64,000 nt of DNA from Anaerohalosphaeraceae bacterium (GTDB taxonomy: Bacteria; Planctomycetota; Phycisphaerae; Sedimentisphaerales; Anaerohalosphaeraceae), in NCBI GenBank assembly GCA_037479115.1, contig JBBFLK010000007.1:1-64000 (forward strand). The letters run 5' to 3'. Under the pieces are notes generated by a model, which saw only the letters and a list, made by a program, of their open reading frames with translations, did not search any database and was not told the DNA's origin. Below are positions 90 through 3,097 of the stretch, one piece after another. The translations under genes were made by a program, and so were the position numbers. Position 1 is the first letter of the stretch. Every line of letters starts with the position of its first letter.

Positions 90-340
90 AGCCGGTTTTC
101 GATGTACATCTGCCCCCCCAATGGAAATCACTGGAAGTGTATCATTCTTCCTTTTTCAGCAAAACCGATTATTGGACATCGTCCAGCCCAATGGGCATAG
201 ATTTTGCATATTAGAATAACGACATACCCCTGATTGTGTCGTAAGACCCTGTTTTTACAGAAGTTTAAGGGGTGTCCTTGTCTTTGGACGGTTACAATAT
301 TGTAGATATGCTCAAATGATAATACATAAATGTAGAAAAA

Positions 341-1879
341 ATGGATAACGAGATTTCAAGCCGGTCACTGAAACAGCTGAGTGTATTGCATTCGATCGTG
401 CAGATTATCACCAACAGTTCAGGTCAGAAGCAGATGCTTGACGAAGTGCTGAATACATTGCGCCGTGAGATGGGCATGTGTCGCGGTGCGTTTATGCTGT
501 CAACGCCGGACGGACAGGAATTGGTTGTCGAGGCGGCCAGCGATGAACAGATTCACAGCGAATCCCATTTGGTGCGTTATCGGCGCGGAGAAGGAATCAC
601 CGGAAGGGTTTTGGCCACGGGCCAGCCGGCGGTTGTTCCCCGTATTGCCGATGAGCCTGAATTTCGCAGCCGAATTCACCCGCGGCGACAGAAAAGTGAT
701 CGCGAGTACAGCTTTATCTGCGTTCCAATCATGTTAAAAACGGAAATTATCGGAACTTTTGGGGTTGATATTCTTGCGGAAAATCTGGAACATCTGCAGG
801 AATTGCAGCGTTTTTTGAGTATTGTTGCTGCCCTGGTTTCCAACGACCTGCATCATCGCCGCGATCTGCTGATTGAAAAACAGAATCTGGCTGAAGAGAA
901 TGTTCGGCTTAAAAACGAACTTCGTGAAAAATACCGTCCGGATAATATTATCGGCAACTCCAATTCCATGCGTATGGTTTATCAGAAGATTCAGCAGGTT
1001 GCTGCCAGCAATACGACGGTACTGATTCGAGGCGAAACGGGAACCGGCAAGGAACTTGTGGCATCGGCGATTCATTATGCCGGACCAAGGTCAGAGAAGG
1101 CATTTGTGAAGGTGAACTGCTCGGCGCTGAATGAAAATGTTCTTGAAAGCGAGTTGTTCGGCCATGAGAAGGGCGCTTTTACCGGGGCCATGCAGACGCG
1201 AATCGGCAGGCTGGAAGAGGCCGACGGCGGAACGTTGTTCCTGGATGAAATCGGGGATTTTTCTCCGACCATTCAGGTTAAGCTGCTCCGGGTACTTCAG
1301 GAAAAGGAATTTCAGCGAGTCGGGAGCAACACAACCATAAAAACAGATGTACGAATCATCGCGGCGACCAATCGCAACCTGGAGCAACTGGTTCAGCAGA
1401 ATTTGTTTCGACCGGATTTTTATTATCGGGTCAATGTATTTCCGATTTATCTTCCGCCGCTGCGTGAGCGGAAGGATGACTTGCTGCTTTTGGCGGATCA
1501 TTTTGTTAAGGTCCTGTCGCATAAACTCGGCAAGAAGATTCGCCGTATCAGTACAACGGCGATCAATATGATGATGACCTATCACTGGCCGGGCAATGTG
1601 CGCGAACTGGAAAACTGCATCGAACATGCGATTCTGCTCAGTGATGACGGTGTCATTCACGGGTATCATCTGCCGCCGACGCTGCAGGTCCCCACACAGC
1701 AGGATAATGCTCCTCAGGGAACCCTAAAAAGCCGTGTTTCGCTGCTGGAGCGGGATATGATTGTTGATTCGCTCAAACGGCACAGCGGCCGTATCAGCCG
1801 TGCGGCACAGGAACTGGGGATTACGGAACGCATGCTGCGCTATAAAATCAAGAAAATGAATATCAATTACGAAAAATAA
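341..1879 (+). CDS. nifA: NifA-type sigma-54-dependent transcriptional activator
   Basis: A 512-residue bacterial enhancer-binding protein. Residues about 15-170 form a GAF domain. The AAA+ domain (about 200-430) has Walker A GETGTGKE at 231-238, the sigma-54 contact loop GAFTGA at 278-283 and Walker [11 protein letters not shown] at 297-306. A Fis-type helix-turn-helix closes the C-terminus. This is the order found in NifA. Its place directly upstream of a nifH with a -24/-12 promoter supports the name. The interdomain cysteine motif of intrinsically oxygen-sensitive NifA proteins is not seen, because after the AAA+ domain there is only one Cys (in ENCIEHA). No nifL is adjacent. A hairpin terminator follows the gene, so it is probably its own transcription unit. 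The ATG at 341 has only a weak ribosome site. Confidence 0.9.
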
Positions 1880-1905: not shown

Positions 1906-1937
1906 AAAACGCCGGGATGAATAACCGGCGTTTTTTT
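1906..1937 (+). terminator. Rho-independent terminator after nifA
   Basis: Perfect 10-base inverted repeat AAAACGCCGG (1906-1915) and CCGGCGTTTT (1925-1934) with a 9-base loop, continuing into a run of seven T. It lies 26 bases after the nifA stop codon and separates nifA from the nifH promoter region. Confidence 0.85.
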
Positions 1938-1938
1938 A

Positions 1939-2081
1939 TGACAACTATTTCAATGCCGACAGCAGCATGACAAATATTTCCGAACATTCGTAATATGTTC
2001 AGCTGCCGCATGTTATGAATGAACAGGAAAGCAGAATGAGTCGGAAGTCGGCTGTTTGTGACAAAAATTTCCGAATGGGCG
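1939..2081 (+). repeat. Three-copy upstream motif in the nifH control region (candidate activator sites)
   Basis: Three related direct repeats begin with TGACAA and share ATTTC: TGACAACTATTTC at 1939-1951, TGACAAATATTTCCGAAC starting at 1968 and TGACAAAAATTTCCGAAT starting at 2059. Copies 2 and 3 share 15 of 17 leading bases. The starts lie 265, 236 and 145 bases upstream of the -24 element, the range where enhancer-binding proteins act. No exact NifA site TGT-N10-ACA is present; the nearest is TGT-N9-ACA at 2011-2025. An inverted repeat GAACAT-N7-ATGTTC follows copy 2. Binding by the local NifA is inference. Confidence 0.5.

Positions 2082-2275: not shown

Positions 2276-3097
<822 letters not shown>

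Follow-up and report, generated by a model that had tools for sequence, protein, structure and literature searches.

In the NtrC to NifA cascade of Klebsiella, a general nitrogen regulator acts on the nitrogen-assimilation genes and on nifA, and NifA in turn acts on nifH. The canonical NifA sequence, TGT-N10-ACA, serves as the enhancer for nif sigma-54 promoters. It is the usual query when NifA targets are looked for, and promoters such as the one described here would be missed in this way. Two sites of the form TAC-N6-GTA were established for AnfA by mutation and gel shift before anfH of Rhodobacter capsulatus; they lie between the terminator of the activator gene and the sigma-54 promoter, and the activator gene is located directly upstream of the nitrogenase operon (PMC7294313). 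The sites of VnfA1 from Azotobacter vinelandii are GT[T/A]C-N6-GTAC, usually two per promoter and similarly spaced, in a sigma-54-dependent system with paralogous NifA-family activators in one cell (PMC9542535). DVUA0143 of Desulfovibrio is an AnfA/VnfA-like protein proposed to regulate nif, for which a motif before nitrogenase operons has been predicted (PMC4641369); it comes from another phylum, and its motif was published only as a figure logo. For planctomycete NifA, no account of the binding sites was found in the open-access literature.

The window analyzed here is a stretch of 64,000 nucleotides from an Anaerohalosphaeraceae bacterium of the Planctomycetota. The gene for a nifA-type enhancer-binding protein (341-1879, forward strand; 512 aa) is followed, after an intergenic region of 399 bp (1880-2278), by nifH (2279-3097, forward strand; 459 bits with TIGR01287), which heads a cluster with nifI1, nifI2, nifD, nifK, nifE, nifN, nifB, and a nifV-like gene, in that order. 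The NifA has a GAF domain, an AAA+ domain with GAFTGA, and a Fis-type HTH, and is linked to the nif operon; its score with TIGR01817, 514.1 bits, is narrowly under the curated cut-off of 528.85. The initial annotation had described a sigma-54 promoter before nifH, with no exact TGT-N10-ACA site in the region, and both statements held: the -24/-12 element CGGCACACTGTTTGCA is found at 2203-2218 on the forward strand with one mismatch, and there is no TGT-N10-ACA in 1880-2278. A terminator-like hairpin, AAAACGCCGG...CCGGCGTTTTTTT (1906-1937, forward strand), was assigned as the probable nifA terminator by sequence inspection only. Between nifA and the nifH promoter, TGACAA does occur three times on the forward strand, at 1939, 1968, and 2059, as had been noted, although copies 2 and 3 share 16 of their 17 leading bases, not 15. 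These copies contain three predicted enhancer sites, all on the forward strand. Site 1, GACAACTATTTC (1940-1951), begins just 3' of the terminator and is the distal member of a helically phased pair with site 2, GACAAATATTTC (1969-1980), 29 bp away; site 3, GACAAAAATTTC (2060-2071), is 91 bp from site 2.

TGACAA by itself is weak evidence, since 56 copies are present in the window and 30 are expected, and as a motif on its own it was rejected. By contrast, the 12-mer GACAANTATTTC, with at most one mismatch, is found three times in the 399-bp intergenic region, whereas in 3000 dinucleotide shuffles it averaged 0.015 occurrences and never exceeded 1. A leave-out matrix, prepared from 13 promoters of the same NifA class with the window and G027, the genome of its closest nif relative, excluded, ranks sites 1, 2, and 3 as 1, 6, and 4 among about 128,000 window positions. 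Furthermore, the pair with G as its outer base and 29-bp spacing occurs at a single location in the 3.0-Mb genome, at nifH. Single sites carry no signal, because the single-site pattern gave 72 matches in the genome and 68 in the reversed control, and a genome-wide regulon from this pattern was also rejected. For the two other exact single-site matches in the genome, there was no sigma-54 promoter within the 3 kb examined.

The way proposed to check the motif was its discovery before nifH in related genomes, and there it is present, not absent. All seven genomes of the order with nifH, the window's own included, hold it in the nifH upstream region, and GACA-N4-TGTC is enriched upstream of nifH in planctomycetes. 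The layout, a pair 29-30 bp apart with a third site 75-94 bp further, recurs in related planctomycetes, including all nif-bearing relatives of the order, and in all of the latter the third site is at a distance of 79-92 bp and the -24/-12 element is downstream of the site triplet. With respect to the nifH start, the sites are at -339, -310, and -219 in the window, and at -340, -311, and -219 in G027. The alignment of these two regions shows conserved islands in otherwise diverged sequence, among them all three sites as well as the -24/-12 element. Comparable triplets are seen in G121, G104, G088, G139, and G098, and in the further planctomycete loci L110 and L070/L108. A fully matching G pair is found in 2 of 59 relatives, G000 (the window's own genome) and G027, which are the two among them with nifH; at up to two mismatches the G pair is noisy in these relatives, which leaves full matches as the only informative ones. 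Of the 18 nifH sites of the order, 12 have TTTC as their right arm; the dyad is therefore not perfect, and the two half-sites may differ in importance, with one of them dominant. The gene nifH itself is not in the same-genus relatives listed, yet it is 96% identical in G027, which belongs to another genus of the family; this patchy distribution may arise from either loss or transfer.

What kind of site is this? Inverted-repeat enrichment upstream of nifH was determined for 80 nifH loci from many phyla, together with further planctomycete loci. Most sulfate reducers, Bacteroidetes, Verrucomicrobia, and spirochaetes show enrichment of TACA-N4-TGTA, while Desulfobulbaceae show TGTC-N8-GACA or TTGT-N10-ACAA, of the canonical NifA type, together with GACA-N4-TGTC. 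The spacing of adjacent sites has a peak at 29-32 bp, about three helical turns, with 24 pairs in 94 promoters versus 0.4 in shuffles. The window sites are GAC-N6-TTC, with an exact left arm and a degenerate right arm compared with the AC-N6-GT geometry, and relatives have GAC-N6-GTC and TAC-N6-GTA at the equivalent places. Since the xAC-N6-GTx' geometry is that of AnfA and VnfA, we read the window sites as the same dyad, in which the outer T has become G and the right TGTC has become TTTC. The paired arrangement at fixed spacing upstream of a sigma-54 promoter, typical of AnfA and VnfA sites, is present, at 29 bp in the window, but the outer T is not, since in the nifH promoters of the order 28 of the 36 outer bases are G.

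The locus resembles that of AnfA in the dyad as read here, in the place of two similar sites between the activator-gene terminator and the sigma-54 promoter, and in the activator gene directly upstream of the nitrogenase operon. It differs in the outer G, in the right arm, which is mostly TTTC, in the third site, and in the Mo-type nifH cluster with nifI1 and nifI2; moreover, the AnfA sites were gel-shifted, whereas those of the window are predicted. The dyad spacing as read here, two similarly spaced motifs in a promoter, sigma-54 dependence, and paralogous NifA-family activators in one cell are shared with VnfA1, while the base identity is different, and the nitrogenase is the V form there and the Mo form here. 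With the canonical NifA sequence, the sites have in common the enhancer role at nif sigma-54 promoters and the distance from the promoter, but neither the half-site sequence nor the geometry. The suggestion that these are sites of a NifA with altered specificity is well supported, because the motif, its spacing, and its place before the sigma-54 nifH promoter are conserved together with orthologous NifA genes. However, the sites are not a planctomycete-only stand-in for TGT-N10-ACA, but the T-to-G variant of a dyad found before nifH in many phyla. This alternative site code is conserved across planctomycetes, Bacteroidetes, Verrucomicrobia, spirochaetes, and sulfate reducers. In three Desulfobulbaceae nifH promoters (L029, L046, and L095), at about -280 to -225, GACA-N4-TGTC is followed 27 bp further by a canonical TGT-N10-ACA, as if two kinds of activator worked on one promoter, and the L095 genome has both kinds of NifA.

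In a quick tree of NifA-family proteins, the window NifA is in a clade of 17 NifA (SH-aLRT 96) from planctomycetes, one MAG labelled Acidobacteriota, and unclassified MAGs, separate from the clade with the enterobacterial and rhizobial NifA. AnfA references were sought by way of AnfD, which gave two loci and one usable candidate. This sole AnfA candidate in the tree (n = 1), encoded beside anfHD of Desulfobulbus elongatus, joins the T-type clade and not that of the window. The paired Cys motif described for AnfA and VnfA (PMC7294313) was not found in the N-terminal GAF region of the window NifA, where the translation has Cys only at 47 and 127. The members of the clade have Arg, or His once, at the fourth residue of the helix motif R-h-h-x-Y-K, which is Arg500 in the window, and other NifA-family proteins have Gly, Ser, Asn, Ala, or Thr at this position. 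G121 (C73; L013, L020) has a further NifA-like gene, which is convergent with nifA and some 2.8 kb away from it; its helix is ARIVGHK, and it is sister to the Arg clade.

We propose, with a probability of roughly 0.8, that the three copies make up the nifH operon's enhancer, most likely bound by the adjacent NifA, that they are an AnfA/VnfA-type dyad with a G tied to Arg500, and that a sister activator acts upstream. NifA dimers would bind the sites, starting with the helically phased pair at 29-bp spacing, and the bound protein would contact sigma-54 RNA polymerase at 2203-2218 by DNA looping, activating nifH. The right arm would have drifted to TTTC in the planctomycete order, giving GAC-N6-TTC.

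The sister activator is encoded in the same genome (C6:23668-25152). It is 49% identical to the window NifA, and its recognition helix, ITERMLGYKMRK, differs from that of NifA at one aligned position, with Gly in place of Arg500. Directly 3' of its gene are TACAAAAATGTA and TACAATATTGTT, 30 bp apart, followed by a sigma-54 promoter, an outer-membrane-type protein, and an ammonium transporter. Paired T-type sites (TACA-N4-TGTA) at the sister gene are seen in seven of the eight genomes examined, nif-less ones among them. A T pair with at most two mismatches is found at only four places in the whole genome: before nifA (293-334), at the sister-linked amt operon, at another amtB, which follows a P-II gene, and at a class-I glutamine amidotransferase gene. 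A sigma-54-like element is near each of them, and relaxing the limit to three mismatches adds a T pair in front of the sister gene. In a count covering six genomes, 28 of 36 outer bases at nifH are G, whereas at the nifA and amt sites the outer base is T in 37 of 44 and G in 1 of 44 (Fisher p = 3e-13, for sites that are not independent). The comparison offers a natural experiment: between two paralogous activators within a single cell, one residue and one base of each half-site seem to have changed in step.

Across genomes, the G form of the site is correlated with Arg or His at this one position of the recognition helix. The outer bases of perfect-core dyads are G 32, A 11, T 6, and C 1 for Arg/His activators, and T 55, G 20, A 7, and C 6 for activators with other residues. 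From this correlation, it may be Arg500 itself that reads the G. There is a serious alternative, to which we give somewhat less than even odds: NifA binds the sites, but the Gly-to-Arg change is a by-stander, and the T-to-G change results from other HTH differences or from drift of the whole clade. Further residues do differ between the two activators (KKMNI versus RKYHL). Arg/His has a single origin on the tree, so that the independent-contrast support is a single pair, and no statistical test is possible. There are also exceptions. Those with G and a non-Arg activator are mostly Desulfobulbaceae, L095 among them, in which the local activator has Gly or Asn and TGT-N10-ACA is often alongside; conversely, G104 has an Arg activator but T at the outer left bases. 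Against this alternative, counted by row, Arg goes with G in 12 and with T in 1, and non-Arg goes with T in 24 and with G in 6. Furthermore, Arg500 aligns, in our own alignment, with Arg89 of Fis, a residue that normally touches phosphate, although one structure shows it swung into the major groove beside guanine N7 (PMC4784862). A nif-less planctomycete relative, G055 (C68, L214, L215), also bears on this point. Its amt-linked activator has Arg in the helix TPRIIRYK and is 57% identical to the window NifA and 53% to the sister activator, and its amt promoter has the G-type sites GACAATTATGTC and GACAAATATGTC, 29 bp apart, before TGGCACGATGATTGCT. Here the target gene is unchanged while the activator type and the base have changed; thus, it is the regulator, rather than the target, that the base goes with. 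The G055 activator is nearest to the Arg clade and therefore does not count as a separate origin of Arg.

It is unlikely that the sites belong to another activator, such as the amtB-linked sister protein or a response regulator, that controls nifH directly while NifA binds elsewhere. Such a reading draws on the several sigma-54 enhancer-binding proteins in the genome, on the same architecture of the sister's sites, and on the presumed control of amt genes by an Arg-type activator in G055. However, the sister promoters carry T-type rather than G-type pairs in seven of the eight genomes, and the sister protein also occurs in genomes that have no nif genes, whereas an exact G pair was seen solely in the company of nifA and nifH. 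The initial annotation had also allowed for the site of another regulator, and this is made less likely because the genome provides the sister activator with T-type sites of its own, which are distinct from these. Descent of the sites from canonical NifA sites by degeneration is very improbable. A TGT does stand before copy 3 (TGTGACAAAAATTTCC), and both kinds of site span about 16 bp, but the region lacks TGT-N10-ACA, the positions conserved in planctomycetes are GACA and TKTC with N4 between them rather than TGT and ACA at N10, and the window NifA is outside the enterobacterial and rhizobial clade. Finally, chance A/T-rich repeats, or a non-NifA element such as a sigma-70 -35-like TTGACA or terminator-flanking sequence, are scarcely credible despite the excess of TGACAA in the window and the abutment of site 1 on the nifA terminator, given the shuffles, the leave-out matrix ranks, the conserved spacing, and the conservation across genomes.

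What, then, controls nifA in a locus where NifA is the probable activator of nifH? Before nifA is a perfect T-type pair, TACAATATTGTA (293-304) and TACATAAATGTA (323-334), 30 bp apart on the forward strand, the second site of which ends 7 bp before the nifA ATG; they are presumed sites of the amtB-linked sister activator. A putative sigma-54 promoter of nifA, GGGCATAGATTTTGCA (193-208, forward strand), is weak, and orthologous loci have stronger versions of it. Six other genomes share with the window a -24/-12-like element about 150-220 bp before nifA and a T-type pair 30 bp apart just before the start codon, although G098 has one T-type site and a weaker copy rather than the full pair. This arrangement suggests that nifA is under the control of the sister activator. 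Because the T pair is downstream of the putative promoter, repression or another arrangement is possible there, and the sister activator could either activate nifA from a downstream enhancer or repress it.

In the cascade that we infer, also for its direction, the sister activator would act on amtB, glnK/amtB, and nifA, and NifA would act on the nifH operon. We consider the chances evenly balanced that such an insulated cascade of two paralogues replaces the one from NtrC to NifA, with the Gly-type protein reading TAC-N6-GTA at amtB, glnK/amtB, and nifA, the Arg500-type protein reading GAC-N6-(G/T)TC at nifH, one helix change corresponding to one base per half-site, and the nifA pair working downstream of its promoter. 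As in Klebsiella, a general nitrogen regulator would stand above nifA and NifA above nifH, but the upper tier in the window's genome would be a NifA-family paralogue and not NtrC. No protein in the genome is over the TIGR01818 (NtrC) cut-off, and a published survey reports limited conservation of NtrB and NtrC in Planctomycetota (PMC12316311); together, these fit a NifA-family protein as the upper tier. The scheme points to a way in which nif could be brought under nitrogen control in bacteria without a recognizable NtrC. The site architecture was already known from AnfA and VnfA. The open-access literature, to which the search was confined with subscription papers outside its scope, gave no description of the G variant, of the link to the helix residue, or of a two-tier cascade of NifA-family proteins, and as far as searched these appear to be new. 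At the class-I glutamine amidotransferase gene (G000 C24:23570-23611, L202), a sigma-54-like promoter is followed by a T-type pair directly before the start codon, as at nifA.
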